Virus record (IMG/VR): IMGVR_UViG_3300042453_005404
Span: 1-64,000 of that record
DNA from: a virus
Direction: 5' to 3' (one strand)
Length of the DNA: 64,000 bases
In this document: positions 309-55,587 of the stretch, piece after piece
Position numbering within the stretch: position 1 is the stretch's first letter
How the letters are laid out: every line of letters starts with the position of its first letter
Notes under the pieces: generated by a model
What the model was told of the DNA's origin: nothing
Seen by the model: only the letters and a program-made list of their open reading frames with translations
Databases searched by the model: none
Program-made: the position numbers and the translations under genes

Positions 309-668
309 ATGATGAAAACCATTAGCCTATACTCCATTCTCTTTGAAGCAGACGATTCCAACTCTATTATTGATCCAAAAGATATGGCCGATGTTGTGAA
401 AAAAGCTGTAGGTGAAGAAACTAAAAAAATAACAGACTTGCTTGTTAAACAAGGAACGCAAGTTCCAACCGCAAGTTTAAGTACCACTGGTGCAAAACCA
501 GCCGTTGGTAGCAAAGAAAGCGGATCTGATAAAAAACTCGATCAGATTGCACAAGCTCAAACAGCAGAAACAACAGCAAACAAAGATCTACAAAAAGATC
601 TAGAAAATATACAATCACAAGTTTCCACACTAACAGCGATGGCAAAGGAAGTTCAGAAGAAAGGCTAG
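309..668 (+). CDS. Small protein with capsid-targeting-like N-terminus
   Basis: This 119-residue protein matches no family I recognise. It begins with a short hydrophobic segment ([10 protein letters not shown], residues 6-15) containing L-F-E followed by Ala, the form of a T4-type prohead protease site. The rest is Lys/Glu/Gln/Thr-rich and probably helical or disordered, with no cysteine. There is no clear Shine-Dalgarno, but the start is closely preceded by TATATC, as in some other tagged genes here. The 3' end overlaps the 3' end of thyA, which is convergent. I infer a head-packaged or scaffold-associated protein. Confidence 0.6.
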
Positions 669-1519
669 ACAGCAACAGGCAACTTAATGCTTGGATGATG
701 TTGATAGTTCATTAACTTAATGTCATCAAACGTAAATCCATCAATATCAGTAACCCTTTGATCCAACAACAGATGCGCCATTGGATATGGTGTTCTATGT
801 AGCTGCTGCTTCAATGCCTCTACATGGTTTGAATAGATGTGCAAGTCACCAAAAGTATGCACAAAATCTCCAACTTCCAATCCACAAACCTGTGCAATCA
901 TATGAGTCAGTAGAGCATAAGAAGCAACATTAAACGGTTGGCCTAACCCCAAATCGCACGAACGTTGATATAGCTGACAAGATAGCTTACCATTCACAAC
1001 ATAGAACTGAAACATGGTATGACATGGAGCAAGAGCCATCTGTGGAATATCTCCAACGTTCCATGCAGATACAATAAGTCGTCGTGAATCTGGATTTGTT
1101 TTGATTTGCTCAATAACCTCTTTGATTTGATCGATTTCTATTTCAGTTGGATCATATACAGGACTATTTGGATCATATGGCCTCCAAAACATATGATCCC
1201 ATTTACGCCATTGCTTGCCATAAACAGGTCCAAGGTTTCCATCCTTGTCTGCCCATTCATCCCAGATAGAAATCCCATTCTCTTTCAGCCACTTGATATT
1301 AGTATTACCTTGGAGAAACCATAGAAGTTCTCCTACAACAGACTTCCAGTGAACTCGTTTAGAGGTTAGGATAGGGAATCCTAGAGATAGATCGTAGCGA
1401 GCTTGCCTACCGAATACAGAGATAGTACCTGTTCCAGTACGGTCAGTTTTTTCTACACCATTGGTGAGAACGTCATTGATTAGATCGAAATATGTTTGGT
1501 CAACGTGATGATATGTCAT
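665..1519 (-). CDS. thyA: Thymidylate synthase (ThyA type)
   Basis: It converts dUMP to dTMP using methylene-tetrahydrofolate. The 284-residue length is slightly above the bacterial ThyA norm of about 264. The folate/phosphate-binding start DRTGTGT (26-32), the catalytic cysteine in ALAPCHTMF (Cys166), the substrate-binding QRSCDLGLG (185-193) and the late [10 protein letters not shown] motif are all present, so it should be active. It is read leftward from a probable promoter at 1526-1555. It belongs with the dUTPase, ribonucleotide reductase, thymidine kinase and deaminase genes of this window in dNTP supply. Confidence 0.97.
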
Positions 1520-1525
1520 GAATAG

Positions 1526-1555
1526 AACATATCACAAGCAATAAGGAAATGTAAA
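1526..1555 (-). promoter_or_regulatory. Promoter of thyA
   Basis: On the minus strand, TTTACA (1550-1555), an 18-base spacer ending in TGTGA, and TATGTT (1526-1531) stand just before the thyA start. This fits the recurrent promoter class of the window. Confidence 0.55.
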
Positions 1556-1559
1556 GAGA

Positions 1560-1809
1560 TTATAGAGCCATTGGATCTTCGAAGTCGAATCCGTTATCAG
1601 TAACATGCATGATCCAGCGAAGACTATCATCCAACTCCTCAGAGTCGAGAAATACTCTTTCGATTTCGGCAGGTGTGGTTTTTACTCCCTTTTGACGAGC
1701 AAAGTCCATAACTTCTTTCCAAGACATTTCCCCACCCTCTTCACCAACATTGCCAAACTCATCATGAAGATCATAAATAAAATCTATTAAAATTTTTCTC
1801 TTGATTCCT
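1560..1809 (-). pseudogene. Partial duplicate of the gene at 1810-2196
   Basis: The minus-strand frame ending in TAA at 1560 encodes a segment clearly paralogous to residues about 40-113 of the preceding gene. Both contain EFGNVGEEGG, the VMDFARQK segment, VKTTP, and (D/E)S-containing turns, ending in a VTDxGFDF motif. This copy lacks the N-terminal part and has no convincing start codon. It lies in a different frame, directly after the stop of the intact gene. The most likely history is a tandem duplication that kept only the C-terminal module. Expression would need readthrough, a frameshift or an unusual start. Confidence 0.6.
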
Positions 1810-2196
1810 TCAGTGTTCGTCCAGTGTTCGTCTGCTCCGCAACTGCAACAGCCCTTCGGGGAATGGATCTACAAAGTCGAATCCAGAGTCAGTAACACCC
1901 ATGATGTAAGCAAGACCGGAGTCCAACATGTCAGAGTGGTTAAATACTCTTTCGAGTTCATCGGGCGTGGTTTTTACTTCTTTTTGACGAGCAAAATCCA
2001 TAACTTCATCCCAAGATACTGATCCACCCTCTTCACCAACATTGCCAAACTCACCGTGAATATCTTCAATAAATCTTGCGATTTTTTCTTCTTTTTCTGG
2101 AGGCATGTTGAGTGCTCCTATACGCTCTTGTTTTCGTTTTTCAACAGATACCGCTTCTTTAATGATTCTTTTTAGTTGACGTACTGTTAATCTCAT
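1810..2196 (-). CDS. Tagged small protein of unknown function
   Basis: This 128-residue protein starts with LTVRQLKRIIKEAV (residues 3-16), a basic amphipathic tag ending in I-K-E before Ala. It is the second form of the putative head-targeting tag in this phage (compare the gene at 21534). The remainder is acidic and helical with a GEEGG turn. No enzyme motif is visible. AGGAG lies about nine bases before the ATG at 2196. Its C-terminal two thirds are duplicated downstream as a fragment. Confidence 0.65.
   Translation of the reverse strand: MRLTVRQLKRIIKEAVSVEKRKQERIGALNMPPEKEEKIARFIEDIHGEFGNVGEEGGSVSWDEVMDFARQKEVKTTPDELERVFNHSDMLDSGLAYIMGVTDSGFDFVDPFPEGLLQLRSRRTLDEH
1811..1832. repeat. Perfect 11-bp tandem repeat at duplication junction
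   Basis: CAGTGTTCGTC occurs twice in direct succession, at 1811-1821 and 1822-1832. It spans the stop codon of the intact gene and the junction with its partial duplicate. Eleven bases is not a multiple of three, so the repeat also sets the frame offset between the two copies. Confidence 0.8.
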
Positions 2197-2327: not shown

Positions 2328-3158
2328 TTATGCTTTCAATTCTCTAATAAAGGACTCGTAAAGTTTTTTGAGTTGTTTTGTTGTATTTTGAAGATAGTTT
2401 TCATTAACTGCATTAACAAAAAGATTTGCTTGTTTTAATTCATCTAGTGTTTTGATTCCATTGTCAAAGTAAGCAAAAGTCATTGCTTTTTGCATTTTTC
2501 CGTATTTTTCTTTTCTTTTTTCAAATTCTTCTGGTGATTCTTCTTTTTGTTTTCTTGGCTCTCTCACCCAAGCGTTCCACTTTGTATCGTTTTTATGGTG
2601 TGCAAAGCAATCATCACTTTTATCTGGTGTTTGAAATGGTTCAAAATCTAAAGCTTTAGATGTTACATCCGGTCTAGACTCCAAATACTCTGCCCAAATC
2701 CTTGCGGCTGCTGGGCTAACCATACTACGATCTCCAATCAAACTATTTCCAGACTGACCAAGAATTACCAACAAACAATCATATAGCATTGGTCCATAAC
2801 CTTTTGCTACTTCTGACATGCTAACAAACCAAGCATTATGACAATTATAATTGGCTTTGTCATCGTTCTCTTTGCATGATACATAACCCCAAGGCATTAA
2901 TGGTTTATGACTCGGCTCTTCATATCGAGATATTGGTCCGCCTTTTTCAAATTTAGAAAATTTAAAATCTCCGTAATATTTTTTTCTTAATTTATCAGTT
3001 TGACTTTCAATTAATCTACCTGTTTTCAAACTGTAAAAACCAACAAGATAAAAATCTGCTCCTCCAAGATCTTGTTTTTCAAATTTTACTCCAACTTTAA
3101 ATTCATCACCAACGCTGTTGTTAAAAGCAATTAGATCTTTAACTGTTTTTGCTGGCAT
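2328..3158 (-). CDS. GNAT-like phage protein
   Basis: This is a 276-residue protein. Residues 120-160 read as a strand (AWFVSMSEV), then AKGYGPMLYDC, which resembles the acetyl-CoA loop and helix of GNAT motif A. SLIGDRSMVSPAAARIWAEYL follows, resembling the second GNAT helix. The same core (GP-(L/M)-x-Y, SDxxL, A-x-x-V/I-W) is found in the six-gene array at 4325-9095, so the families are probably related. It lacks the LNE-type tag, but it follows a small tagged gene by three bases. The C-terminus is charged. Acetyltransferase activity is not shown by the sequence. Confidence 0.5.
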   Translation of the reverse strand: MPAKTVKDLIAFNNSVGDEFKVGVKFEKQDLGGADFYLVGFYSLKTGRLIESQTDKLRKKYYGDFKFSKFEKGGPISRYEEPSHKPLMPWGYVSCKENDDKANYNCHNAWFVSMSEVAKGYGPMLYDCLLVILGQSGNSLIGDRSMVSPAAARIWAEYLESRPDVTSKALDFEPFQTPDKSDDCFAHHKNDTKWNAWVREPRKQKEESPEEFEKRKEKYGKMQKAMTFAYFDNGIKTLDELKQANLFVNAVNENYLQNTTKQLKKLYESFIRELKA

Positions 3159-3161
3159 GAT

Positions 3162-3452
3162 TTAACCTTTTTCACCTTTTGTCCAAGAGATTCCCATGGC
3201 TGGTGGGTCTTTCAACGTGTCATGTTCTTTGCTACGATAGTAGCCACCTTTGTTAAGATTTTTGTTAATACCTTTGGTTAGTTCTTTATGGTAGCTTGGG
3301 TTGTTGTCATCTTTGGCATGAATAAAAGTATCTGAACCAATACGATCCCCGTGGCCAACGTATTCATAACCCATTGCTTTTACGAGTTTTTTGTTAAAAG
3401 CTGCTTCTAAAATCAGTAGTTTTATTAAGCCATACAAGAATTCTTCATTCAT
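3162..3452 (-). CDS. Small tagged protein upstream of GNAT-like gene
   Basis: This 96-residue protein has a hydrophobic N-terminal stretch (FLYGLIKLLILEAAF, residues 5-19) containing I-L-E before Ala, like other tagged proteins in this window. A basic, Gly/Asn-rich C-terminus follows (GYEYVGHGDRIGS, KGGYYRSKEH). It sits three bases before the GNAT-like gene, so the two are probably co-translated. A decayed second copy of its end lies at 2274-2320. Function unknown. Confidence 0.55.
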   Translation of the reverse strand: MNEEFLYGLIKLLILEAAFNKKLVKAMGYEYVGHGDRIGSDTFIHAKDDNNPSYHKELTKGINKNLNKGGYYRSKEHDTLKDPPAMGISWTKGEKG

Positions 3453-3962: not shown

Positions 3963-4328
3963 ATGTATTGTATCTCTTCTATTGGTTATGTTCCACATTC
4001 ATTAGCTTTGAAAATATTGAACAGTTCAGAGTTACGTGCAAAAGGCTTCATGGGATGGAGTCAGCCACCCAACGATCATTATGGAATGCTTTTTGTGCAT
4101 GACATAGAACATCCTCAATCTTATTGGATGCATACCGTTCCTTTTGATTTAGATTGTCTTGGATTCGATAAGCATAACAGATTGGTTGAGGTACTGCCTT
4201 TGGAAGCATTTTCTACGGCCTCTAGAAGATTTTCTGTGCCTGTTCGTTATGTTGTTGAAGTAAGAGGAGGTTGGTGTAAAGACCACGGCATAAAAGGCGG
4301 AGAAAAGCTAGTTATAAGGAAACTATGA
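3963..4328 (+). CDS. DUF192-family protein
   Basis: This 121-residue protein has the DUF192 signature: a G-(L/F)-M-x-W-type start (GFMGWSQ), GMLFVHD, the hydrophobic YWMHTVPFDLDCLGFD segment, and a terminal YVVEVRGGWCKDHGIKGGE. Bacterial members are usually exported and of unknown function; this one has no signal peptide. It overlaps the first gene of the six-gene array by four bases (ATGA), so it is probably translated together with the array. Confidence 0.75.
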   Translation: MYCISSIGYVPHSLALKILNSSELRAKGFMGWSQPPNDHYGMLFVHDIEHPQSYWMHTVPFDLDCLGFDKHNRLVEVLPLEAFSTASRRFSVPVRYVVEVRGGWCKDHGIKGGEKLVIRKL

Positions 4329-5113
4329 AACTATATCAAATCATATACACAAACGAAGCAGCAAGATCGGCAGAAGAGTCTTTGGAAAAAGGAGTTTTTG
4401 CTTATCTTAAACCGGGAACGTATCCAAAAGTTATTCTAATATCTAGAGACAGGCTTTTGCAAGCCATTGATTCCGAGGTGCTGCTGGGGCCGTTGGTACG
4501 GAAAATTGCTGGTCGTGCTGTTGTTGGAGCTGTAGGTTATAACAAAGACTCTTCTGGTGAAGATTTATACAAGGTGGATACAAGTGCTGGAGTTGCTAGT
4601 TTTGGTCCATTGGCTTATCAGCTAGCAATGTACACAATACAACCATCTTGGCTAATGAGCGATAGTTCTCTTAAACCAGCAAGTCATCGTGTTTGGAAAA
4701 ACATGTACAAGCTTTCTGAGCAAGGAGTTTATGAGCGTAAATGGCTTGGAGATTATAACATTGACTTGGTTTCTGAACGGTATATTGGTATCGAAAGTGG
4801 CAAGTTTGCGAGATTCCTCTCCTCCTTACGGTGGATTCGCCTCTCCTCCTTACCTCCTCCAGCCGAAGATTTATTCATAAAATGGGTAAAAGAAAACCAC
4901 CCAGAAGAACCGATAGAAAACTTTGGTCAATTTTGGGCATATCGTAAAACAAGTCATGACCCTAAGATAAAAAACTTATTTGATCAAAGCGAAAAGTTTA
5001 TCGAACAAATGCAAACCGAGCGAAAGATACCAGAAGTTACAACAAGAGAAATAATAGAACGTTCAGCAGCTTTGTTTTTTGGTCGTCTTTATGGTTCTGC
5101 TGCAAGTTATTGA
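4325..5113 (+). CDS. Tandem family protein 1 (tagged, GNAT-like core)
   Basis: First of six paralogs, 262 residues. The N-terminal tag MKLYQIIYTNEAARSAEESL is followed by a short variable domain. The conserved core has RAVVGAVGY, a Lys-Val-Asp-Thr strand, GVASFGPLAYQLAM, LMSDSSLKPASHRVW and KMYKL-type segments. The C-terminal helical part ends LYGSAASY. GPLAYQ sits where GNAT enzymes bind acetyl-CoA, but the RxxGxG/A loop is not intact. Residues about 165-180 carry an extra FLSSL/RLSSLPPP stretch made by a 24-bp DNA repeat, absent in the paralogs. I infer a head-packaged protein. Confidence 0.7.
   Translation: MKLYQIIYTNEAARSAEESLEKGVFAYLKPGTYPKVILISRDRLLQAIDSEVLLGPLVRKIAGRAVVGAVGYNKDSSGEDLYKVDTSAGVASFGPLAYQLAMYTIQPSWLMSDSSLKPASHRVWKNMYKLSEQGVYERKWLGDYNIDLVSERYIGIESGKFARFLSSLRWIRLSSLPPPAEDLFIKWVKENHPEEPIENFGQFWAYRKTSHDPKIKNLFDQSEKFIEQMQTERKIPEVTTREIIERSAALFFGRLYGSAASY
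4816..4853 (+). repeat. 24-bp-period direct repeat within tandem family protein 1
   Basis: CCTCTCCTCCTTAC occurs at 4816-4829 and 4840-4853, each preceded by GATTC. The 24-base period keeps the frame and adds about eight residues (Leu-Ser-Ser-Leu blocks) not seen in the paralogs. Confidence 0.75.
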
Positions 5114-5125
5114 AAAGATGAACAC

Positions 5126-5914
5126 ATGAAACTTTATCCACTCATATATACCAACGAAGCAGCAAGAACAGCTAGCGAAGCTATAGAAGCTGAACTAGGA
5201 CTTTTCATTTATCCTACCGATGATTCGATAGCTGTTATATTGATTGATTCAGAACGATGTGAAAATATCTTAGCGTCGTATCTTGAAAAAAAAGAAGCTT
5301 ACAAACCTAAAAAAGAATGGTTAACAACAGCCATTGGAAATCGTGCTGTTGTTGGAGGTGTTGGTATAAGACATCCAGATGCTTGGAGAGTTAGTTTTTC
5401 TGTGGCTGTCAGCAAATATGGTCCATTACTTTATGATGCGGCAATGGCAGCGATATACCCAGATTATCTTTGTTCTGATACAGACATTACAGAAGCCGCT
5501 CAAAAAGTTTGGAACAAAATGCTTGAACGTAATGATGTTGAAAAAATACCTGTTACAGAACTTGGTGATGACGTATACATGATGATAAGCACAAGTTTTA
5601 GCGTTGCAGGCTTGACAAGTAAACAAGCAGAAGAAGCAAGAAATTCTATAGGAGATGCAAATTTGGATTTAGAGTGGTTCGAAAACTTTGTCAGCAGCCT
5701 TCCTCCAGAAGATAAAGCCAAGCTTGGCCCGTTTTATGGTTTTCGTAGAAAGGCTGGCAAAGATCTTTCAAAGTATAATACTCTAATTAAAACCAGTGAT
5801 GACATCATTGATATCTTTGCTGGTTCTATGAAGCTTAAACGATTCGATGTTGAAGAAGCAATAGAACAAGCTGCGATACAAATGTTTAAACGCTTTTATT
5901 TCAGGAGAAAATGA
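5126..5914 (+). CDS. Tandem family protein 2 (most divergent)
   Basis: Paralog of 262 residues with tag MKLYPLIYTNEAARTASEAI, the core RAVVGGVGI, KYGPLLYDAAMAAI, LCSDTDITEAAQKVW and NKML, and a C-terminal helix ending FKRFYFRRK. It is the most divergent copy: it lacks the GVYKRKWLGD block and the LWAYQL block is reduced to FYGFRRK. Its GPLLYDAAM helix is the closest in the array to the GNAT-like gene at 2328. It lies 12 bases after copy 1 and five bases before copy 3. Confidence 0.7.
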   Translation: MKLYPLIYTNEAARTASEAIEAELGLFIYPTDDSIAVILIDSERCENILASYLEKKEAYKPKKEWLTTAIGNRAVVGGVGIRHPDAWRVSFSVAVSKYGPLLYDAAMAAIYPDYLCSDTDITEAAQKVWNKMLERNDVEKIPVTELGDDVYMMISTSFSVAGLTSKQAEEARNSIGDANLDLEWFENFVSSLPPEDKAKLGPFYGFRRKAGKDLSKYNTLIKTSDDIIDIFAGSMKLKRFDVEEAIEQAAIQMFKRFYFRRK

Positions 5915-5918
5915 ACAC

Positions 5919-6746
5919 ATGAAACTATATCCAATCATATACCTTAACGAAGCAGCTCCAACAGCAACCGAAGCTATTGGCAAAAACGTTGCAGCTATCA
6001 CTAGTGACGACTATGCAGATTGGGAATCACCAACCGATCATAGTATCGTTTTGATATCCACAAATAGAGCAATGAGCATAATGCAATCGTTGCCGAAAAA
6101 AGGTTGGGCACCAGAGGAGATAAGCGCCGCAGAAGCTCGTACTATCGGTAAACTCATTGCAAATCGAGCAGTTGTTGGATATGTTGCATACTCTGATAGC
6201 GATGAAAATCTGTGGAAAATCGACTCTAGTGCCGGTGTGGCGAGTTTCGGACCATTGGCATATCAACTAGCGATGTGGTCAACTGGTGGTTGGCTTGAAA
6301 GCGATATTTCTCTCAAACCAGCAAGTCAAAGAGTTTGGCAAAAAATGTATGAACTATCCAATCAAGGTGTATACAAGCGTAAATGGCTTGGTGAATGGAA
6401 CGAAGATCATCCCGCCGAACGTATGCATATTGGTCCTGCTCCCCGAGATTTAGGAGAGTATATAACCAAAGTCGAAAACGGAGAAATAGATTACGAAGAC
6501 GAACAAGCTTTTCTAAGTTGGTTACAAGAAAACAACCTAAAGCCAGAAACTTATGGTTGGCTTTGGGCTTATCAACTAGTCTCTCACGATTCAAACACTC
6601 GCAGTTTGTTTGACAAAGGCAAGCAACTAATCCAAGATTTAAGAGAAATATATCCTCAGTTCACCGAAAAAGATCTTGGTGAGTTGTTTGAAACTGCGGG
6701 CAGAAAGTTTTTTCGTAGACTCTACGGTGGAAAAGCTAGTTATTGA
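5919..6746 (+). CDS. Tandem family protein 3
   Basis: Paralog of 275 residues, the longest copy. The tag MKLYPIIYLNEAAPTATEAI contains L-N-E before Ala, matching the T4 prohead site rule exactly. The core has NRAVVGYVAY, KIDSSAGVASFGPLAYQLAM, WLESDISLKPASQRVWQKMY, GVYKRKWLGEW and YGWLWAYQL, and it ends RRLYGGKASY. It has a Trp-rich acidic insert after residue 35. It lies five bases after copy 2. Confidence 0.7.
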   Translation: MKLYPIIYLNEAAPTATEAIGKNVAAITSDDYADWESPTDHSIVLISTNRAMSIMQSLPKKGWAPEEISAAEARTIGKLIANRAVVGYVAYSDSDENLWKIDSSAGVASFGPLAYQLAMWSTGGWLESDISLKPASQRVWQKMYELSNQGVYKRKWLGEWNEDHPAERMHIGPAPRDLGEYITKVENGEIDYEDEQAFLSWLQENNLKPETYGWLWAYQLVSHDSNTRSLFDKGKQLIQDLREIYPQFTEKDLGELFETAGRKFFRRLYGGKASY

Positions 6747-6759
6747 TAACAGAAATAAC

Positions 6760-7515
6760 ATGAAACTTTATCCAATCATATACCTTAACGAAGGTATGCG
6801 TACACCAGAAGAAGCGTTGGAAAAAGGTATTGCTGCGATACAAACACCAACCGGTGTCGCCGGAGGTCAGTTTGTAAATCTTGTTTCAAAAAAACGTATG
6901 CTAAATTTGCTAGAAAAAAACAAAACCTTGTTAAACAATCCAACAGAACGCTTAAAGTTGGTGTTTAAAGCTGCCAACCGTGCTGTTGTTGGTAGCGTTA
7001 GTTTTCGATCTACACACGTTCAAGGTGTAACCAAAATCAACACAAGTGCTGCGGTTAATAAATTTGGACCTCTTGCTTATCAGTTAGCAATGCATTATAT
7101 AAAGCCAAGATGGCTTTGTAGCGATACAAGCCTAACAGCTGAATCAGCAAAAGTGTGGTACGAAATGTACGCACGTCCAGAACTCTATGAAAAAAAATGG
7201 ATGGGTGATCTATCAGGAGATTCTACCAAACTCATTAATGATCGATTGAACGCTGATGAAAACAAAGACTATATCGATTTACCCGACGACATGGTAACCG
7301 ACGAAGCGTATATGACACAAGAACTTGGTGACATGTCCAAATATGGATATCTTTATGTTTATCGTTTAGCTAAACCTATTCCTGCATTGCAGGCTGTTTT
7401 CGATCAAGGGGAAGCGTTTCTTGACGAACTCGTTGACAGAGGATTCGACGCTGCTTTAATCAAACAAATCATTAGTGACAGCGGCGATGCATTTTTTGAA
7501 AGGAGATACGATTGA
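6760..7515 (+). CDS. Tandem family protein 4
   Basis: The start is taken at the ATG at 6760, where the family tag begins (MKLYPIIYLNEGMRTPEEAL); an upstream extension would only overlap copy 3. 251 residues. The core has NRAVVGSVSFR, AAVNKFGPLAYQLAMHYI, WLCSDTSLTAESAKVW and KKWMGDL, with YGYLYVYRL in place of the Trp-rich segment. It ends FFERRYD, without the ASY/ASD tail. The stop overlaps the start of copy 5. Confidence 0.7.
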   Translation: MKLYPIIYLNEGMRTPEEALEKGIAAIQTPTGVAGGQFVNLVSKKRMLNLLEKNKTLLNNPTERLKLVFKAANRAVVGSVSFRSTHVQGVTKINTSAAVNKFGPLAYQLAMHYIKPRWLCSDTSLTAESAKVWYEMYARPELYEKKWMGDLSGDSTKLINDRLNADENKDYIDLPDDMVTDEAYMTQELGDMSKYGYLYVYRLAKPIPALQAVFDQGEAFLDELVDRGFDAALIKQIISDSGDAFFERRYD

Positions 7516-8309
7516 AACTATATCCAATCATATATCTCAACGAAGGTATGCGTACACCAGAAGAAGCGTTGTCGAAAGGTGTGGCTGCAATCAAAAAATC
7601 AGCTGGTAGCGATAAAGTTGCAGCAATCGATTTGCTTTCTATTGAGAGAACTTTAAATATCGCAAAAAAACACAAGCCATGGCAGATCGTTGACGGCGAG
7701 CATTTAGCTAAACGTGCATTTGTTGCTTCGATTGTATATGAGTTTGTTAGTGAAGATATCTACAAAATCATTGGCAGCGCAGGAGTTTCAGACTTTGGTC
7801 CATTAGCTTACCAAATGGTAATGCAAGAAATCATGAAGGATGGTGGATGGCTTGCGTCTGATTCAATGCTTAAACCTGCAAGTCAAAGAGTTTGGCAAAA
7901 GATGTATGAGCTTTCCGAACAAGGTGTATACAAACGTAAGTTTTTGGGAGAGGTAAACAAAAAGCATATCAGTATGCGTCAATTGATTATACCATCTGAA
8001 CTTAAATCCATTGTAGGCATTAAAGACGCTATAAGCGACTATTACAAAACAAGCTACAAAATGACAAATGACGGTTTTATAGCTTATTTGGATGCACTAT
8101 CCCTAAAACCACAAACTTATGGTTGGATGTGGGCATACCAACTTGAATCTCCTAACCCAAACATTGACGAGCTTTATAGAAAAGGTGAAGAGTTAGTTGC
8201 GCAAATAAAAAATATAACGGGATTTGACGATAAAGTTACACATGACATGATCGAGGATGCTGGTGAAAAGTTTTTTGATCGTTTATACGGCAGCAAAGCC
8301 AGCGATTGA
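7512..8309 (+). CDS. Tandem family protein 5 (TTG start)
   Basis: 265 residues. The family tag LYPIIYLNEGMRTPEEAL begins at a TTG (7512-7514) that overlaps the stop of copy 4 (TTGA). A strong AGGAG lies six bases upstream, so TTG is the likely start; the other five copies use ATG. The core has KRAFVASIVY, AGVSDFGPLAYQMVMQEIM, WLASDSMLKPASQRVWQKMY, GVYKRKFLGE and YGWMWAYQL, ending DRLYGSKASD. The rarer start and overlap suggest output coupled to copy 4. Confidence 0.7.
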   Translation: MKLYPIIYLNEGMRTPEEALSKGVAAIKKSAGSDKVAAIDLLSIERTLNIAKKHKPWQIVDGEHLAKRAFVASIVYEFVSEDIYKIIGSAGVSDFGPLAYQMVMQEIMKDGGWLASDSMLKPASQRVWQKMYELSEQGVYKRKFLGEVNKKHISMRQLIIPSELKSIVGIKDAISDYYKTSYKMTNDGFIAYLDALSLKPQTYGWMWAYQLESPNPNIDELYRKGEELVAQIKNITGFDDKVTHDMIEDAGEKFFDRLYGSKASD

Positions 8310-8324
8310 CACAAGGAAATCTAA

Positions 8325-9095
8325 ATGAAGCTGTACCCCATTATGTATCTTCATGAAGGTATGCGGACACCAGAAGAAGCGTTGGAAAAAGGTATTGCTG
8401 CTATAGCACACAAGTATGCAACCAGCGTTGGGGGTATAGTGTTGCTTTCTACCAAAAGAACGTTAAAGTACGTACAAAAAAATAAAGCATTAGATGGTTT
8501 AGAACAACGAGCAGTAGTTGCATCGATCAACTATAGGCTGATTCAAGGAGATCTATACAAAATCAATTACAGCGCAGGAGTTTCAGACTTTGGTCCATTG
8601 GCATATCAAATGGTAATGCAAGAAATAATGAAAACTAACAATGGATGGTTGGCTTCTGATGAAAATCTTAAGAAAGCCAGCAAAAGAGTTTGGCAAAAGA
8701 TGTATGAGCTTTCTGAACAAGGTGTATACAAGCGCAAATGGTTAGGTGATTGGGATATCGGCGGGGGAGATCGGACACGGCATCCATTCAGCAGACGAAC
8801 ACATTTAGGTCAAGATTCATCGTTGTATTACGAAGGTATGAAAGATAAGAAGTACGATGGTTCTGAAGCTGATTTTTTAAAATACTTAAGCGAACATAAT
8901 GTAGCACCATATGAGTATGGATGGCTTTGGGCTTACCAACTTCAATCATTTAATCCAAAGTTTGAAGAGCTTTATGAAAAAGGTGAAGAGTTACTTTTGC
9001 AAATCGAACAAATCATCAAAGGTGTAAGAATCAATAACGTTCGTAATGTTTTGCTTTCTGGAGAAAACTTCTTTGGTCGTATGTATCACTCATAA
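8325..9095 (+). CDS. Tandem family protein 6
   Basis: Last copy, 256 residues. The tag is MKLYPIMYLHEGMRTPEEAL. The core has QRAVVASINYR, YSAGVSDFGPLAYQMVMQ, WLASDENLKKASKRVWQKMY, GVYKRKWLGDW and YGWLWAYQL. It is closest to copy 5. The linker after KWLGDW is different in every copy (here GGGDRTRHPFSRRTH), so the array has a fixed core and a variable middle. AAGGA precedes the start. A convergent minus-strand gene begins 14 bases downstream. Confidence 0.7.
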   Translation: MKLYPIMYLHEGMRTPEEALEKGIAAIAHKYATSVGGIVLLSTKRTLKYVQKNKALDGLEQRAVVASINYRLIQGDLYKINYSAGVSDFGPLAYQMVMQEIMKTNNGWLASDENLKKASKRVWQKMYELSEQGVYKRKWLGDWDIGGGDRTRHPFSRRTHLGQDSSLYYEGMKDKKYDGSEADFLKYLSEHNVAPYEYGWLWAYQLQSFNPKFEELYEKGEELLLQIEQIIKGVRINNVRNVLLSGENFFGRMYHS

Positions 9096-9109: not shown

Positions 9110-9685
9110 CTATGGTGAATCTGTTTTAACAGGCTCATTTGGATCTTCTAAACCCTGCCACAATCCCGGCATAGCCGGACCCTCAAAGTCTGGTTTGTGC
9201 ATCGCTCCAAAGCTTTCTTGAATATCATGTTCATATTCCAGAGTCACTTTTAGTCTTGGAATAGAATCATTAGCTATTTCATCTTTGGTAGCTGGACGTA
9301 CAACATCTAGAGTACATACCATCCATTGTTCGTCTGGTCCATGACACAATACCCCAGTATCACGAAATGCACGAAGTATTCTACGTTTCTCTTCTGGAGA
9401 GATATCAAGCTTTTCTACTTCGAAGTCTTTTGGTTCGTAGCCAGTATATTCAACGTGTGGCATTTCTTGAAGAGCTAAAGCATTTGGATCATGCACGGCT
9501 GGAGAAGCTGAAATAACTTTTCCTTTTTTGCGACGTTTTACTTTTTGTCCCGGCTTCATTCCAATCGGAAGCATAGGTCCACCTCCGATTTGCCCAGAAG
9601 TATCTAAACCACCGCCGCCAGCACTGATAGCCATTGCTTCTTCTATTGCTGCGTCTTCGTATATAATGCTTTTTAGTTTGCTCAT
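9110..9685 (-). CDS. Tagged protein with Gly-rich linker
   Basis: 191 residues. It begins MSKLKSIIYEDAAIEEAM, with I-Y-E before Asp as a possible prohead protease site. A Gly-rich linker (SAGGGGLDTSGQIGGG) and a basic patch (VKRRKKGK) follow. The C-terminal domain includes ISPEEKRRILRAF and GPDEQWMVCTLDVVRP and ends in an acidic tail. The domain is not recognised. There is no Shine-Dalgarno before the ATG, but AGTTATATC ends two bases before it. Likely a virion or head-associated protein. Confidence 0.6.
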   Translation of the reverse strand: MSKLKSIIYEDAAIEEAMAISAGGGGLDTSGQIGGGPMLPIGMKPGQKVKRRKKGKVISASPAVHDPNALALQEMPHVEYTGYEPKDFEVEKLDISPEEKRRILRAFRDTGVLCHGPDEQWMVCTLDVVRPATKDEIANDSIPRLKVTLEYEHDIQESFGAMHKPDFEGPAMPGLWQGLEDPNEPVKTDSP

Positions 9686-19659: not shown

Positions 19660-19665
19660 ACTATT

Positions 19666-20943: not shown

Positions 20944-21537
20944 GTGAAATACCAACGATTATTGTTACAGATTATCGAAGAAGAAATCGACAAATATTTT
21001 CTGGAACAAGTTGCACCACCAGCGGCACCAGCTGCTCCAACGCCACCTACCGCATCAACAGATGCGGGTTTAGAGCCTGATGTTTCCGGTGGGGGCGAAG
21101 GTGATGATGAAGGCAATGTAGACAAAGCCATAAAGATACTTGCTGCTAAAACTCCTATCGAGGTCAAAAAAACGATTTTGTCTTCTTTACAAAATGGCGC
21201 AGAAAGACCTGATGCTGAAACTTTGATTGCTTATGTACAAAACAAGAAAGAAAAAGAGTCAACAAACAATTCTACTATTGAAGATACAGACAAAGAAATA
21301 CCAATTAACGTCGATAAAGCTGTTACCCACATTGTACAAACTTTCAAGTTCAAGGTACCAGAAAAAGCAGAAAAAGAAGCAGAAAAAGAAGATAAAGCAT
21401 CGATAGAAGAAAAGCCTGCGGAAACACCAGCAGCTCCCGCCGCACCAACTTCTGCACCTGTGCAAGAATCTAAATTGCAAACCAGTTTGCGAGAATATTT
21501 AAGGTACAAGCAATTAAGTCAAAAGGTGAAAAGATGA
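20944..21537 (+). CDS. Tagged Ala/Pro/Glu-rich protein
   Basis: I prefer the GTG at 20944 (MKYQRLLLQIIEEE), since the earlier ATG at 20878 lies inside the previous gene. 197 residues. It has a hydrophobic N-terminal tag (LLLQIIEEEI), a Pro/Ala linker (PPAAPAAPTPP), an acidic middle and a Lys/Glu repeat (EKAEKEAEKEDKA). Its C-terminal amphipathic stretch is LREYLRYKQLSQKVKR. It is largely disordered or coiled, and looks like a scaffold, core or internal head protein. The stop overlaps the next start by four bases. Confidence 0.55.
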   Translation: MKYQRLLLQIIEEEIDKYFLEQVAPPAAPAAPTPPTASTDAGLEPDVSGGGEGDDEGNVDKAIKILAAKTPIEVKKTILSSLQNGAERPDAETLIAYVQNKKEKESTNNSTIEDTDKEIPINVDKAVTHIVQTFKFKVPEKAEKEAEKEDKASIEEKPAETPAAPAAPTSAPVQESKLQTSLREYLRYKQLSQKVKR

Positions 21538-21911
21538 AAAAGGAACTTACATACAAACAACTTAAAACAATCATTAAGGAATGTGCTTGTGAAGCAATGA
21601 AAGACTCACATATGGGTGGAATGCCCAGCATTAAAATGATTAAGCTTGGAAAACCTGATACGCAAGCTGGATTGTTTCCCGGTATGGGTTTAGATCATAT
21701 GGATCATGATGATTCACACTGGGATGATCACGACCAAGGTGAAAAAAGCATGATTCTTGCTAATCTTGCAAGAATGTCAGACAAGGCTTTAGAGCTTCGT
21801 GATTTGGCTGCTGGCGTACCCGACAACGAAGAATGGGTTCAAGAAAAGATTGCTGTTGCTTCTGCGATGATAGATTCGATTTACAACTATTTAAAATACA
21901 AGCAAGACTGA
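21534..21911 (+). CDS. Tagged small protein with His/Asp-rich centre
   Basis: 125 residues. The tag ELTYKQLKTIIKECACEAM (4-22) is the same type as in the gene at 1810-2196 (QLKRIIKEA). Then follow a Met/Gly-rich loop and a His/Asp cluster (DHMDHDDSHWDDHDQ) that could bind metal. Two helices at the end finish in YLKYKQD, similar to the YLRYKQ end of the preceding protein. It overlaps that gene by ATGA. Function unknown; probably packaged or head-associated. Confidence 0.6.
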   Translation: MKKELTYKQLKTIIKECACEAMKDSHMGGMPSIKMIKLGKPDTQAGLFPGMGLDHMDHDDSHWDDHDQGEKSMILANLARMSDKALELRDLAAGVPDNEEWVQEKIAVASAMIDSIYNYLKYKQD

Positions 21912-25134: not shown

Positions 25135-25638
25135 TTATTCCCAAGCCCTACACGACCAGTACCGGGCCTTGGTTCTTGGGCCGGGATTTTTGCAATTATG
25201 ACGAGCTCTAAAGCTCTTACGACGCTTTGGATTGCTCTTCTTGATGCGCATGTTTCTATCACCAAAGGTTACTCTTTTTACGTTTCCTGTTTTGGGATCA
25301 CGAACAAAAACATAAAACTTTTTCTTTCCCTTTGATGTTGGATTTCTTTTTGGTTTGCCGAGCTCAACTTTTTTTCCTTGATATTCTGCTTCGGTTAATA
25401 AATTATGTTGTTCGTTCATATAAGCAACAAGACAACCTTCGCAAACTGGTGTTCCGTCTTCTAGCTCTGCATTAAGCTCTAGAATGTTAACATTTTCTTC
25501 TGGTAGTTCTTCGTCAAACAAAAGATATAAGTCTTTTTCTGGGACATAAACAGGTTCTTGATTAAGAACACGTTTGTATTTGCTCTTGAGCTCTTGTAAT
25601 GATTCTAGAATAAGACGCTTTAAATACAGTTTGTTCAT
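25135..25638 (-). CDS. Tagged protein with conserved Arg/Lys-rich C-terminal domain
   Basis: 167 residues. It has the N-terminal tag NKLYLKRLILESLQEL with I-L-E before Ser. The acidic middle holds a CEGC pair. The C-terminal domain reads KKKFYVFVRDPKTGNVKRV, FGDRNMRIKK, KRRKSFRARHNC and KARYWSCRAWE, with a pair of cysteines. I recognise this C-terminal pattern as recurrent in T4-like marine phages, where it occurs near head or core genes, but cannot name it firmly. The basic domain could bind DNA in the head. Confidence 0.65.
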   Translation of the reverse strand: MNKLYLKRLILESLQELKSKYKRVLNQEPVYVPEKDLYLLFDEELPEENVNILELNAELEDGTPVCEGCLVAYMNEQHNLLTEAEYQGKKVELGKPKRNPTSKGKKKFYVFVRDPKTGNVKRVTFGDRNMRIKKSNPKRRKSFRARHNCKNPGPRTKARYWSCRAWE

Positions 25639-46675: not shown

Positions 46676-47080
46676 ATGTCAATGAGAAAAAACATTCTTG
46701 CTCTTTCGTTGTTTGAAGCAGCAAAGACTCTAAAAGAGCAAGCAGAAACTGTTTCAAACGAAGGTGTTCCGGTTGATGACGAAACTGGAGAAGCCATTAC
46801 CTTGGATCATATTCTTGAACGTTTAAACACCATTCGCTCTGGTAAAAGTTTTCAAGATCCAGAAGTTTATGGAAAGCTAACAACTCTATTCAAATCAATG
46901 TCAAGCGATGACAAACTTAAACTAAATCAACAACTTCGCAACATTGGAGCCGTAGTTCAAAATCAAATTCCTGTTGAAATGGCTCCCGAAACATCAACAC
47001 CCGCTCCATCACCCGCACCCCCATCAACACCCGCTCCATCCCCCGCACCCCCTCCACCGCCCTCAGCCCCCGCCGCTTGA
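46676..47080 (+). CDS. Tagged protein with Pro/Ala/Ser tail
   Basis: 134 residues. The N-terminal tag RKNILALSLFEAAKTL contains L-F-E before Ala. A helical domain follows (DHILERLNTIRSGKSF, KLNQQLRNIGAVVQNQ) and then a 35-residue tail of Pro, Ala and Ser in a PAPSPAPP-type repeat. The tail DNA is C-rich, unlike the rest of the gene. A GGAG precedes the ATG. Likely a packaged or head-associated protein like 54149 and 54862. Confidence 0.6.
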   Translation: MSMRKNILALSLFEAAKTLKEQAETVSNEGVPVDDETGEAITLDHILERLNTIRSGKSFQDPEVYGKLTTLFKSMSSDDKLKLNQQLRNIGAVVQNQIPVEMAPETSTPAPSPAPPSTPAPSPAPPPPPSAPAA

Positions 47081-48524: not shown

Positions 48525-49559
48525 ATGGCAAAGATTCTCGTTGGGCTTTCTGGTGGTGTAGATTCTGCCGTTGTTGCTGCTTTGTTGAAGCGACAAGGGC
48601 ATGAAGTCTATGGTTATACCCTTAAGCTTCTAGAAACACTTGACAGTGATGAAGGTGAGGGTTGCTGCACCTTCAAGGATATTCGTGATGCTCGTATGAT
48701 TTGTGATCAGATGGGTATTGAATACCTTGTCACAAACTGGAAGCAACAGTTCAAGGAAAAGGTTATTGATCGTTACCTTGATGGAGCCAAACAAGGTATT
48801 GCTTACAATCCGTGTGTAACGTGTAATAGCACCATCAAACTTCCAGTGCTTGCTGCGGTTGCCAATCATTTTGGCTGCGAGTATATTGCTACTGGACACT
48901 ATGCAAGAGTAAACAATGGACGAATCAGCAGGGCAAAAAATCTCAAAAAAGATCAAAGCTATTTTCTCTGGGAAACTCCATCAGATGTTGTTTCTCGACT
49001 TATCTTTCCCCTTGGAGATTTTGATAGCAAGGAAGATACTAGAGCTCTTGCCCGTGAGTTTGGTCTTCACGTCGCTGACAAGAAGGATTCAACCGACTTG
49101 TGCTTTCTTGCTGGAGGTACCAAGGAAGAGTTTTTGGAGCGAAACAACGTTGTTTCCTTTGGTGGTAACTTTGTTGATGTTGATGGAAAGGTAGTAGGAA
49201 AGCATGAAGGATACACAAAATACGTCGCAGGACAGCGTGCCAACATTGCTGGCAGTAATAATGCTCGTTACGTTCTCAATGTTGTACGTTCTACTGGGAA
49301 CGTCGTGGTTGGTTCAAGGGAGCAGGCCAGTTCTCGATCTTTCTTTCTCACCAACGCTAGGATCGATTTTAAGGTAGGTGTAGATACGGTTACAGCAGTT
49401 ACCCGCTATCATTCATCTCCTGTCGCTGTAGAGGCTATTACGAGCTCTGACAGTGGTGTAAATGTTTCTTTGCGGGAATCTGTGTTTGGTGTTGCAAAGG
49501 GACAGAGCTGTGTGTTTTATTGCGGTGATGAAGTTGTTGGTGGAGGGGTGATTTCATGA
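48525..49559 (+). CDS. mnmA: tRNA-specific 2-thiouridylase
   Basis: 344 residues, against about 365 in bacteria. The PP-loop is LSGGVDSAVV (8-17), the first catalytic Cys region NPCVTCN (95-101), a GHYAR motif (124-128) and KDQSYFLW (142-149) follow, and the second Cys is in STDLCFL (Cys193). The C-terminal tRNA-binding beta domain is present. The enzyme thiolates U34 of Lys, Glu and Gln tRNAs using sulfur relayed by host proteins. A phage copy is rare and may restore or protect tRNA wobble modification during infection. The stop overlaps the first gene of the small-protein array. Confidence 0.93.
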   Translation: MAKILVGLSGGVDSAVVAALLKRQGHEVYGYTLKLLETLDSDEGEGCCTFKDIRDARMICDQMGIEYLVTNWKQQFKEKVIDRYLDGAKQGIAYNPCVTCNSTIKLPVLAAVANHFGCEYIATGHYARVNNGRISRAKNLKKDQSYFLWETPSDVVSRLIFPLGDFDSKEDTRALAREFGLHVADKKDSTDLCFLAGGTKEEFLERNNVVSFGGNFVDVDGKVVGKHEGYTKYVAGQRANIAGSNNARYVLNVVRSTGNVVVGSREQASSRSFFLTNARIDFKVGVDTVTAVTRYHSSPVAVEAITSSDSGVNVSLRESVFGVAKGQSCVFYCGDEVVGGGVIS

Positions 49560-49849
49560 TTATCGGTGAGTTGTACTTTGTGAAAGAGCTTTTCTGGCTT
49601 CTCTTTCCAACGAAAGAACTGGCGTCGAAGCGATGGTGCTTTGCGGCGACCGGCGGTCGAGCGAAGCAGGTGAAGGGGGCAGTTTCTTTTGTTGAACCAA
49701 AGACTTATGTTGTTTTTCTTGAAGAAGATGAAAATGTAAATGAATGTTGCTATAAACTGCTTGATTCAAATGGTAACATTGGTTGGATTGGTTGGAATAG
49801 CTGTTCTGATTTCTCTAGCTATTTCGAGCTTGTAAAGGCAAATCAATGA
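49556..49849 (+). CDS. Variable-insert array protein 1
   Basis: 97 residues. Conserved front IIGELYFVKELFWLLFPTKE, GC-rich variable centre (SKRWCFAATGGRAKQVKGA), conserved back FVEPKTYVVFLEEDENV ... LLDSNGNIGWIG and a final FELVKANQ. The back half looks like a small SH3-like barrel. It overlaps mnmA by four bases and the next copy by four bases, so the set is translationally coupled. Function unknown. Confidence 0.6.
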   Translation: MIIGELYFVKELFWLLFPTKELASKRWCFAATGGRAKQVKGAVSFVEPKTYVVFLEEDENVNECCYKLLDSNGNIGWIGWNSCSDFSSYFELVKANQ

Positions 49850-50148
49850 GTGATATTCAAATCGGTGAGCTTTATTTGGTTAAAGGTTTCTGTCTTCTCA
49901 TTCCAACAAAAGAACGGGCGTCGAGGCGGTTGTCGGGGGGGTGCGGGCGACCGGCGGCGTATCGACATGCAAAAGAGTTAAGCCAAATTTTTAAATGCAA
50001 CGTTTCTGTTGTTGAACCAAACACTTACGTTGTTTTGCTTGAAATGGATGAAGTATATTTCAAGGTTCTTGACTCAAACGGTAACATTGGTTGGATTTAT
50101 TGCTCTGATTTCTCTGGTTATTTCAAGCTTGTAAAGGCAAATCAATGA
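49846..50148 (+). CDS. Variable-insert array protein 2
   Basis: 100 residues. IQIGELYLVKGF, then LLIPTKERAS; variable centre SRRLSGGCGRPAAYRHAK encoded by a run of G/C-rich codons including GGGGGGG. Conserved back VVEPNTYVVLLEMDE ... VLDSNGNIGWIYCSDFSGYF and KLVKANQ. The start and stop overlap the neighbouring copies (ATGA). Confidence 0.6.
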   Translation: MSDIQIGELYLVKGFCLLIPTKERASRRLSGGCGRPAAYRHAKELSQIFKCNVSVVEPNTYVVLLEMDEVYFKVLDSNGNIGWIYCSDFSGYFKLVKANQ

Positions 50149-50459
50149 GTGATTTCATGATTATCGGTGAGTTGTATTTGGTTAAAAGTTACCACTGGTT
50201 TCTCTTTCCAGCAAAAGAGCAGGCGACGGGGGTCGATGCGGCGAGGGTGGCGGTGAGGGTGTCGCAGAGTTATGCAAAATGGTTCAGCCAAGAATTTAAA
50301 TGCAAAGTTTTTGTTGTTGAACCAAACACTTATGTTGTTTTGCTTGAAGTAAATGAAAATGAATGTTGCTATAAACTGCTTGATTGTAATGGAAACGTTG
50401 GTTGGATTTATTGTTCTGATTTTTCCGACTATTTCGAGCTTGTAAAGGCAAATCAATGA
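50145..50459 (+). CDS. Variable-insert array protein 3
   Basis: 104 residues. The N-terminus MSDFMIIGELYLVK looks like a fusion of the start of copy 2 (MSD) and copy 1 (MIIGELY). The variable centre is TGVDAARVAVRVSQSY, again GC-rich. The back half is FVVEPNTYVVLLEVNENEC, LLDCNGNVGWIYCSDF and FELVKANQ. A Cys replaces Ser in LLDCNG. Confidence 0.6.
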   Translation: MSDFMIIGELYLVKSYHWFLFPAKEQATGVDAARVAVRVSQSYAKWFSQEFKCKVFVVEPNTYVVLLEVNENECCYKLLDCNGNVGWIYCSDFSDYFELVKANQ

Positions 50460-50770
50460 GTGATATTCAAATCGGTGAGTTGTATTTGGTAAAAGAGTTT
50501 TTCTGGTTTCTCTTTCCAACAAAAGAACTGGCGAGGCGGGTGCAGACCGCCGTGGTGGCGGCGGCGAGGTACAGGGCGAAGGCGGCGTGGCGTAATGCAA
50601 AAATGTTAAGCAAAGATTATAACTGCAACGTTTTTGTTGTTGAACCAAACACTTGCTTTGTTTTGCTTGAAGAAGATGAAAATTTTTTCAAGGTTCTTGA
50701 CTCAAACGGTACCGTTGGTTGGATTCGTTGTAGGGATTTTTCCGACTTTTTCGAACTTGTAAAGGAATAA
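50456..50770 (+). CDS. Variable-insert array protein 4
   Basis: 104 residues. IQIGELYLVKEFFWFLFPTKE as in copy 1. The centre ARRVQTAVVAAARYRAKAAW is the most GC-rich and basic of the four. The back half is FVVEPNTCFVLLEEDENFF, VLDSNGTVGWIRCRDF and FELVKE, lacking the ANQ tail. It is the last of the four closely related copies; more distant relatives follow. Confidence 0.6.
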   Translation: MSDIQIGELYLVKEFFWFLFPTKELARRVQTAVVAAARYRAKAAWRNAKMLSKDYNCNVFVVEPNTCFVLLEEDENFFKVLDSNGTVGWIRCRDFSDFFELVKE

Positions 50771-50774
50771 AGCA

Positions 50775-50990
50775 ATGCTTCAATTTGGAAAGCTTTATCG
50801 GTTCAATAGCGCACACGAAGACTTTATGGTAAGCACAAGGCGTGGTTGGAAGTTTGTCGGTAAAAACACTATGTTTGTTTTGCTTAAAGAAGAAGACGAG
50901 CATTATGTTGTTTTGCTATCTGATGGTGTGATTGGCAACGTTTACACAAATGAAGGTTCGCTAGACTTGGTAACAAAGGATAACATATGA
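50775..50990 (+). CDS. Distant relative of the array proteins (no insert)
   Basis: 71 residues. LQFGKLYRFNSAH, then TMFVLLKEEDEHYVVLLSDGVIGNVY follow the same G-(K/E)-LY ... F/VVLL-E-E-D-E ... L-x-D/S-x-G-x-IG-x-(V/I)-Y order as the array proteins but without the variable centre. SH3-like barrel inferred. The stop overlaps the next start. Confidence 0.55.
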   Translation: MLQFGKLYRFNSAHEDFMVSTRRGWKFVGKNTMFVLLKEEDEHYVVLLSDGVIGNVYTNEGSLDLVTKDNI

Positions 50991-53655: not shown

Positions 53656-53707
53656 CAACAAACGATTTTAAAGGCATTATACAGGCAAGAAAGAAAAGGA
53701 AAGCACA

Positions 53708-54115
53708 ATGAGTCAAGTAACAGAAAAGACAGTCACGGTTAAGGTTAAGAATCATCCCAGAGACATGTTTTATTCTGGCAAACAAACCAGAGATCATCTT
53801 AACGGCATGATGAAGTATATGGCTTCAAAGAAATGTTTTCCAGATAACGACCTTGTTAAGGCATTTCTTAACACTGTAAATGTTGGTGATATTGTTGGTG
53901 TGGAACATAACCAATATAGAGTAGAAGAAGTATCTGAACACAGCTTTATTGGGTTGAATGCTCTTTCAAAGGAGCGTATGACTCTTAGCTCGGAAGATCT
54001 TACGATGGGACTTGGTTCTGGATTTTGTGAGATTCTGTACAGGGATGGAAAGCCTTACGGCATTGAAACCGAGAAACAAGTAAAGGTTAAAATCGTAGAT
54101 CACTCAAAAACTTGA
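53708..54115 (+). CDS. Hypothetical protein
   Basis: 135 residues. A helical front (DHLNGMMKYMASKKCF), then NVGDIVGVEHNQYRVEEVSE and FIGLNALSKERMTLSSEDL, a small barrel with the form of an RNA- or protein-binding SH3-like domain. AAAGGAAAGC precedes the start. Function unknown. Confidence 0.5.
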   Translation: MSQVTEKTVTVKVKNHPRDMFYSGKQTRDHLNGMMKYMASKKCFPDNDLVKAFLNTVNVGDIVGVEHNQYRVEEVSEHSFIGLNALSKERMTLSSEDLTMGLGSGFCEILYRDGKPYGIETEKQVKVKIVDHSKT

Positions 54116-54148
54116 GTTTTTAGTTGATCTTGGATAGCTTTGTTCCTT

Positions 54149-54827
54149 CTACTTCCTTCTAAAAAAGTCTGTCACTCTCTGGAGCATACCTTGGTTTTGT
54201 GATGGTGCTGGTGGGGTTGTTGCAGCAACATTTCCCGCTGCTGGTCGTGCTGGAATTGTTGTCGCCGCAGTTGGCGCAGAGCTTGTTTGGGGTGAAGAAG
54301 CTGGAGGCCGTGCGGATCGTTGAGGTTGAGATGGAGGAGTAAAAATACGTGTTATATCTTCGTCAGAAAGTCCTCTGCCCTTCAGAAATTTGATATAATC
54401 TTCTCGATCTTTTTCCTGATAATATTTTTTCTTTTCTTCTGGAGACATATCAGGAGCAGATGGAGTTGTTGAATCCAATGGAGGGCGACGACGTAGGGGA
54501 GATGGTGGCCGAGGTGTTTCCATTTTTCCAAAATCCCCTTGTCTTTCTGGAATTTTACCACCAATAAAATTGGCAAGAGTTTTGATATTGCTAGCTGCGT
54601 TACTTGCGTCTTCTGCATCTTGTTTTGTTGGAGCAGCTTGTTTAACCAAATGCTCGATATTATTGATAAGTTCTTTAATTTCTTTTTGTGAGCTGTTTAT
54701 AACCTCTGGAGAAGATCGACTAATTTTGTTGGAGGGCGAAGGCGCTAAATTGGGTTTGTTGGTTGCCAACCGAGCTTTTAAGTCTGGTGGTTTTGGGCCT
54801 TCAAAAAGTATGTCATATAACTTCATA
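54149..54827 (-). CDS. Tagged Pro-rich protein A
   Basis: Start taken at the ATG at 54827, where the tag MKLYDILFEGPKPPD begins (L-F-E before Gly). 225 residues. A helical segment (KEIKELINNIEHLVKQAA), a KKKYYQEKDREDYIKFLKG helix and a long Pro/Ala/Ser/Thr chain follow, ending GMLQRVTDFFRRK. The end is similar in kind to that of the neighbouring 54862 gene. Mostly disordered; it looks like an internal head protein. The start lacks a Shine-Dalgarno. Confidence 0.6.
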
Positions 54828-54861
54828 TAAGTTAGAAATAAATATATGGCTTTAAGCAATT

Positions 54862-55587
54862 TTAACGATTGTTAATTGCATCTTTAAATGCTTGCTTTAT
54901 CGCTTCTTCAAGACCAATACGGTTTCTGAACCTTTGAAAAAGGCTTTGCTTTGTTGGTGTTGCTTGTGGCAATGGAGTTGTTGGAGCATTTCGCATTGTT
55001 CTTTCAATGTCAACTTGTGGAACAGGTTGTGTTTGATTAGGTCTATATTGAGGTTGTGTTTTAGCGAATGCTAAAGCAGCTTGTGTTGCTTGCTGTGGTG
55101 ATGGTGACTTTGTAGGCTTCTGTTCCTGTGGTGTTGTAATTGATCTTGCGCTAGGTTGGGGCAAAGCAGTAGAACTAGCAGCAGAACTTACAACGGGTTG
55201 TTGTGGTTCTGGTTTAGTTTTATAACCTTTCATGTCGGCAATTGCACTAATGATTGGGTCTACATCTTCAATTGCTTTTTTAGCTGCAACAACTTCTTCT
55301 TTTGATGGATCTTTCTTATTGGCAAGGTTTGAAATAGCTGGCAATTCATTTTTGATTTTTTCTCGCATTTTGGTTATTAATTGACTTGGTTCAAATTCCA
55401 TCCTGCCAGACTTTGAAGGCTTATCATAAGGACTCGGTTTTATTTTAGCTCTTGGTGCTCTTATTTTGGTTGGTGGGTTGGTTGGTGGGTTATTGGTTGT
55501 CGGCACTGTGGAGTCTCCGTGCCGTCCAACTCGTTGCGGTGGAGGTGCATCTTCATACAAAAATTCGTACAAACTATACTTTGTCAT
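54862..55587 (-). CDS. Tagged Pro-rich protein B
   Basis: 241 residues. Tag TKYSLYEFLYEDAPPPQ with L-Y-E before Asp. It has a long Pro/Thr/Lys-rich chain with one helical region (LITKMREKIKNELPAI, EVVAAKKAIEDVDPII). The C-terminus SLFQRFRNRIGLEEAIKQAF is an amphipathic basic helix, like LQRVTDFFRRK in the neighbour. The two are likely diverged paralogs with tag, disordered middle and basic end. Confidence 0.6.
   Translation of the reverse strand: MTKYSLYEFLYEDAPPPQRVGRHGDSTVPTTNNPPTNPPTKIRAPRAKIKPSPYDKPSKSGRMEFEPSQLITKMREKIKNELPAISNLANKKDPSKEEVVAAKKAIEDVDPIISAIADMKGYKTKPEPQQPVVSSAASSTALPQPSARSITTPQEQKPTKSPSPQQATQAALAFAKTQPQYRPNQTQPVPQVDIERTMRNAPTTPLPQATPTKQSLFQRFRNRIGLEEAIKQAFKDAINNR

Follow-up and report, generated by a model that had tools for sequence, protein, structure and literature searches.

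An N-terminal tag ending in [L/I]xE on many unrelated proteins of a large T4-like phage resembles T4 capsid-targeting sequences

The window analyzed here comprised bases 1 to 64,000 of a 260,466-base IMG/VR virus record, that of a T4-like myovirus with portal, S77 prohead protease, scaffold, gp23 and tail sheath genes at about 186 to 208 kb. The best named matches of its gp23 were distant (33 to 43% identity) and came from Microcystis phage Mel-JY01 and Flavobacterium phage immuto, followed by Rhodothermus phage RM378. The gene set was sampled over 184 kb of the record, namely, the window plus six stretches of 20 kb, and was called with a simple purpose-made coding-potential caller; start codons are therefore approximate. 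A first-pass annotation had listed proteins of the window that begin with a short hydrophobic or amphipathic segment ending in [L/I]xE, of either an LYxIIYLNE or LYDILFE type (style A) or a QLKRIIKE type (style B). All of the listed N termini could be read directly in the sequence (Table 1), except that the start codon at 20944 is ambiguous and the tag there is weak, with a GTG start lying within a longer frame. Further tagged genes were found outside the window, at L003 3212 and 3920, L004 7, 858, 3719, 4338 and 5265, L005 2043 and 4264, and L006 9171 and 9433.

TABLE 1 N-terminal tags read in the window, with the residue that follows each
Tag	Position	Strand	Gene and basis
Tag of 13 residues	309..347	+	309-668 (119 aa); read from sequence, strict pattern
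Style-B tag MRLTVRQLKRIIKE, then A	2155..2196	-	1810-2196; read from sequence
MNEEFLYGLIKLLILE, then A	3405..3452	-	3162-3452; read from sequence
MKLYQIIYTNE, then A	4325..4357	+	Paralogue 1, 4325-5113; 17-member alignment
MKLYPLIYTNE, then A	5126..5158	+	Paralogue 2, 5126-5914; 17-member alignment
MKLYPIIYLNE, then A	5919..5951	+	Paralogue 3, 5919-6746; alignment, AlphaFold model
MKLYPIIYLNE, then G	6760..6792	+	Paralogue 4, 6760-7515; alignment
MKLYPIIYLNE (TTG start), then G	7512..7544	+	Paralogue 5, 7512-8309; alignment
MKLYPIMYLHE, then G	8325..8357	+	Paralogue 6, 8325-9095; alignment
MSKLKSIIYE, then D	9656..9685	-	9110-9685; relatives have MSKLKSFLYE
Doubtful tag MKYQRLLLQIIEEEIDKYFLE (GTG start)	20944..21006	+	Gene ending at 21537; start codon ambiguous
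Style-B tag MKKELTYKQLKTIIKE, then C	21534..21581	+	21534-21911; relative L180:10324 has MKLTQKQLRNLIKE
MNKLYLKRLILE, then S	25603..25638	-	25135-25638; read from sequence
MSMRKNILALSLFE, then A	46676..46717	+	46676-47080; fits [LI]xE, fails strictest pattern
MKLYDILFE, then G	54800..54826	-	54149-54826, ATG at 54826
MTKYSLYEFLYE, then D	55552..55587	-	54862-55587; read from sequence

Several other features were observed in the window and the sampled record. The gene of a RecA-like recombinase (42079-43902, plus strand) contained an apparent mini-intein, extending from about 'CVSPETMISYRP' to 'YLSNGILSHN' and followed by T. Short paralogues of the form 'MQLGKMYLVKELFWLLFPTKE...' with a variable middle formed a large expansion in at least two clusters (49556-50990 and L003:10117-18688, the latter at 110.1-118.7 kb of G000), and a GIY-YIG-like homing endonuclease sequence ('GIYKITNKLNGRIYIGSA') lay amid head and tail genes at L006:11417-12382 (201.4-202.4 kb of G000). 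Two long open frames of 353 and 359 amino acids (16836-17897 and 18727-19806, both on the plus strand) were antisense to an AAA-ATPase-like gene and its neighbor and are probably by-products of composition. The paralogue array starting with 'MQLGKMYLVKE' has [LI]xE at residue 11 and was set aside, as this start resembles that of a domain and not a tag.

The frequency of the tag was assessed with a strict pattern (a hydrophobic residue, [L/I], any residue and E, with the E at residues 8 to 20, followed by a small or polar residue) after paralogues of the phage had been collapsed to families. The pattern was present in 22 of the 166 sampled families, versus 3.2 ± 1.7 expected from random internal positions, and none of 2,000 random draws reached 22; plain [LI]xE was found in 45 of these families versus 21.8 ± 4.1 expected. 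This family-collapsed excess rejects chance as the source of the tags, in agreement with the earlier expectation that they occur above random frequency. No such excess was seen at the N termini of 1,045 proteins taken from viral contigs drawn at random (hydrophobic pattern, 7.7% versus 7.2 to 7.6% inside), whereas in loci chosen solely by gp23 similarity the hydrophobic pattern reached 27.5% at the N terminus versus 5 to 12% inside, related head genes being counted repeatedly in the latter set. With classes assigned from sequence, the strict pattern was absent from all 23 replication or nucleotide enzymes and from all 20 tail or other structural genes. Applied to a 48-kb stretch of T4 as a positive control, it picked 5 of 63 genes, namely, ipII, ipIII, gp2, gp21 and gp22, and missed ipI, the site of which is at residue 19 after Thr. 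A Sec signal peptide (hydrophobic core plus AxA-type site) did not fit on inspection: Lys, Arg and Glu interrupt the hydrophobic residues, and the end is [L/I]xE.

That the bodies behind the tags are unrelated, as had been proposed, stood at the level of collapsed families but not for the genes at 4325, 5126, 5919, 6760, 7512 and 8325, which are six paralogues of one acetyltransferase-like family, so that 4325-9095 does not provide independent cases. In a 17-member alignment of this family the tag was 9 (MKLYPIVYE) or 11 (MKLYPIIYINE) residues long, and the Glu was invariant and stayed fixed against the body while tag length shifted by two residues. An AlphaFold model of 5919-6746 had a mean pLDDT of 88, and the sole segment below 50 was residues 1 to 11, exactly the tag, which in this one modeled case is thus predicted to lie outside the fold. 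Bodies were also shared across tags: that of the 'RFKNKR' family was found behind MKKLLTEWRKYLNE, MKHLREYIRQILLE and MKVTRHQLRKIIAE, HAD-like bodies were found behind MDKNLLRTLISNIIHE, MRITVGQLRTLIKE and the start of L006:9433, and the acetyltransferase-like body was found behind MKLYPIIYLNE, MKQLLTEWRKFVLTE and MKHLRQYIRQILLTE and more weakly behind MKIRLGELRRIIRE. Because the Glu is fixed despite the change in length, the tag alone is disordered in the model and bodies are shared across tags, these comparisons show the tag to behave as a separate, swappable unit ending at the Glu. In a fold test of the six paralogues, the Foldseek PDB matches listed were nearly all GNAT proteins, with low TM scores and a best E value of 0.17, so a GNAT fold is not established for them; a Pfam scan of three family members (5919, 8325 and 2328) gave no match. 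The gene at 2328-3158 (minus strand) is an untagged distant relative of these paralogues (profile E = 5.8e-6), and the tagged 96-amino-acid gene 3162-3452 is its immediate upstream neighbor on that strand.

Of 80 tagged proteins, few had a Pfam match. In the phage itself, the tagged proteins include a zeta-toxin-like kinase, the tag of which is weaker (L004:2966), the acetyltransferase-like paralogues and, at L004:4338, L004:5265 and L006:9433, respectively, an RNase T-type exonuclease, an LRV/HEAT-repeat protein and a protein that is HAD-like by its sequence motif. The T4 late promoter TATAAATA was as frequent upstream of tagged genes as upstream of other genes, so expression timing gives no support.

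Outside this phage, style B could be followed as a DNA pattern (M[KR]xTxxQL[KR]x[IL]IxE), which matched at least 120 stretches of viral contigs but just 20 in the bacterial and archaeal genomes, which together comprised 257 billion bases. Almost all of these 20 were contigs of metagenome-assembled or single-cell genomes; two matches came from named isolates, Paenibacillus and Psychrobacillus, and the latter, in a 462-amino-acid aldehyde-dehydrogenase-like protein, looks like chance. By these matches, style B appears essentially absent from bacterial isolates. When open reading frames starting with style B were grouped, under a looser pattern than the DNA one, phage contigs yielded about 286 body clusters (short bodies may be oversplit), which bears out the expectation that a motif search of relatives would find the tag on many unrelated proteins; the reversed pattern occurred nowhere. 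Up to 18 copies were present in single viral records and 20 on one contig of a metagenome-assembled genome (MAG), and tagged genes stood in tandem arrays with up to 13 matches in 8 kb. A tblastn search of the phage collection with a 22-amino-acid query gave no match, which probably reflects the limit of short queries. One contig filed under a Methylococcaceae MAG, NHDW01000006.1 (306 kb; L212, L219, L224 and L227), carries about 20 style-B tags and an S77 match and apparently represents phage sequence placed in a bacterial bin. Style-B tags were amphipathic (hydrophobic moment, 0.56 versus 0.25 ± 0.13) and cationic (net charge, +4.2). Synonymous variation among the tag codons indicates that it is the peptide that is conserved.

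Style B may also hold a second cut site. Among 203 IIKEE tags, in which residue 15 is Glu, 72% had a second [LIVM]xE ending at residues 19 to 25, versus 12% in control windows and 31% in style-B tags with a small residue 15. The second site was mostly at residue 21 or 22 and was most often followed by A, G, Q, N or D. It is likely, as judged from these patterns, that the full style-B signal reads MKITKxQLRxIIKEExxxLLxE, with a final cut at residue 21 or 22 or with two successive cuts. For the QLKRIIKE tag, a cut after residue 14 may thus be wrong or one of two, and a single rule of cutting after IIKE may mispredict the mature N termini of style-B proteins.

Both styles named at the outset were present, but the wider group holds more than two. 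In the cultured Flavobacterium phage vB_FspM_immuto (host, Flavobacterium sp. LMO8), tags included MKKSQLRQIIKE followed by A, MISIYNILKE followed by V, MENFDLKKFLVENKLTTNSKILKE followed by N and MKKQILSEQFRRMQKLAGIITE followed by S, and unrelated tag styles converged on the same [L/I]xE end. Two tag-like families of immuto (L353 and L354), 'FDLKKFLVENKLTxNSxLLxE' and 'MKKQILSEQFxRMQxLAGIITE', each on several proteins, were absent from the other loci examined.

A gp21-like protease, which had been predicted to lie outside the window, was found there: a peptidase S77 (99 bits) is encoded at 189,282-189,764 of the record and shares 32% identity with T4 gp21, the two aligning at the GELxH and SSR motifs. 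In the alignment of gp23, the propeptide ended in LxE or IxE (LKE, LRE, IQE, LNE, LME or LQE) just before the conserved mature start in 42 of 42 relatives and in the phage itself, and four of the five sites in gp23 were within residues 11 to 67. The gp22-like scaffold was enriched in [LI]xE followed by a small residue (9 versus 3.2; P = 0.006), and the sheath of the phage had no such site; T4 gp22, gp23 and gp18 showed a site pattern similar to that of the scaffold, gp23 and sheath of this phage. The predicted gp23 and scaffold sites share [LI]xE, and the tag end is thus what the S77 protease would be expected to cut. Of the 15 tag-bearing viral records of at least 100 kb, 14 had S77, the exception being G025 (135 kb); among tag-bearing records of at least 40 kb, S77 was present in 25 of 42, versus 3 of 26 random records of at least 40 kb. 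Both T4-like ancestry and record length confound this association.

In T4, capsid-targeting sequences (CTSs) are carried by IPI, IPII, IPIII ('MKTYQEFIAE' followed by A) and Alt and are cut by the gp21 protease (PMC3012670, PMC5694885); the internal proteins of T-even phages are highly diverse, with the CTS alone conserved, and include a set of defense proteins with a CTS (PMC3012670). The comparisons above show an appendage, read as spanning 9 to 22 residues, that is common to many unrelated proteins. Like the T4 CTS, it is N terminal and short (about 10 to 20 residues, some style-B tags perhaps reaching 21 or 22), ends in [L/I]xE and sits on diverse, fast-evolving and otherwise unrelated proteins, in a genome that encodes a gp21-type S77 protease and in which the tag end matches the predicted gp23 and scaffold sites. 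We consider it highly probable that the tags are T4-type CTSs, on a much larger scale and in styles new relative to T4. By analogy with T4 (PMC3012670, PMC7697877, PMC5694885) and P1 (PMC9024508), we infer that the tagged proteins would be docked on the core, cleaved, packaged and injected. The tag would dock cargo on the scaffold core during prohead assembly, the S77 protease would cut after the tag Glu and leave the mature cargo within the head, and most cargo would leave the head together with the DNA, as fast-evolving proteins of early infection, like the internal proteins and Alt of T4. The QLRxIIKE style would be a variant that is cationic and amphipathic; it often has two sites (E14 and E21/22), and the final cut would probably be at the second.

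Counting against the CTS reading are the strong positive charge of style B, unlike the T4 signal, the Glu that follows IIKE, which is unusual if the cut is at E14, the tag-bearing record without an S77 match and the lack of a T4 late-promoter excess at tagged genes. The strong amphipathic helix of style B, frequently with Glu right after the cut position, would also suit a tag that docks cargo onto the scaffold or core and often stays uncut, in style B especially, with [L/I]xE merely part of the docking helix; we regard this as unlikely, as the Glu keeps its place relative to the body when tag length changes, different styles all converge on [L/I]xE and the residues after the site at 21 to 22 are mostly small or polar. 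The charge and hydrophobic moment of style B would likewise fit a cationic amphipathic helix by which newly made proteins would reach the membrane or nucleoid of the host instead of the head. Against this quite improbable route, style A is noncationic, the tag ends in the site predicted for the prohead protease and starts of this kind are found on head core and scaffold genes; the T4 control also counts against it. That the shared starts are mere recombination or translation-initiation modules, with a peptide that has no role, is very improbable, for although tandem arrays would ease recombination at gene starts, codons are free to vary while residues are kept and unrelated styles share the same end.

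The CTS reading differs from the T4 case in that the present phage group has many more tagged proteins per phage and several styles, including the cationic QLRxIIKE class, often with two sites. In P1, the N-terminal signal of DarB sends the protein, and also a reporter, into the head (PMC9024508), but Dar proteins lack a common sequence and are not known to use a shared code. The ejected head proteins of SPN3US and phiKZ-type phages likewise have N-terminal propeptides removed by the prohead protease (PMC5694885); several of these, however, exceed 100 residues, and a single SPN3US propeptide is comparable to the T4 CTS. Among the matches listed, searches of the open-access literature for tag peptides returned unrelated matches alone. 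As far as that literature shows, what is new is the scale, the interchangeable styles, the QLRxIIKE class with its possible double site and the reach across uncultured phages.

We lean towards a broader reading in which large T4-like phages use a general, modular head-import code with several interchangeable signal classes (LYxILFE, QLRxIIKE(E)xxxLLxE, YIRxILxE, FLVENKLTxNSxLLxE and RMQKLAGIITE), style B being a cationic amphipathic helix that carries two protease sites in succession, such that tens of effectors may be carried per virion and the injected proteome of uncultured phages could be read from DNA. Head-carried proteins delivered at the first moment of infection are known for few phages, and a readable tag would make head cargo a sequence question for thousands of uncultured ones. 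The tags add candidates to the packaging signals of T4 and P1 and draw attention to a large set of short proteins, most of them unnamed, that may within the first minutes act against host defenses or metabolism.
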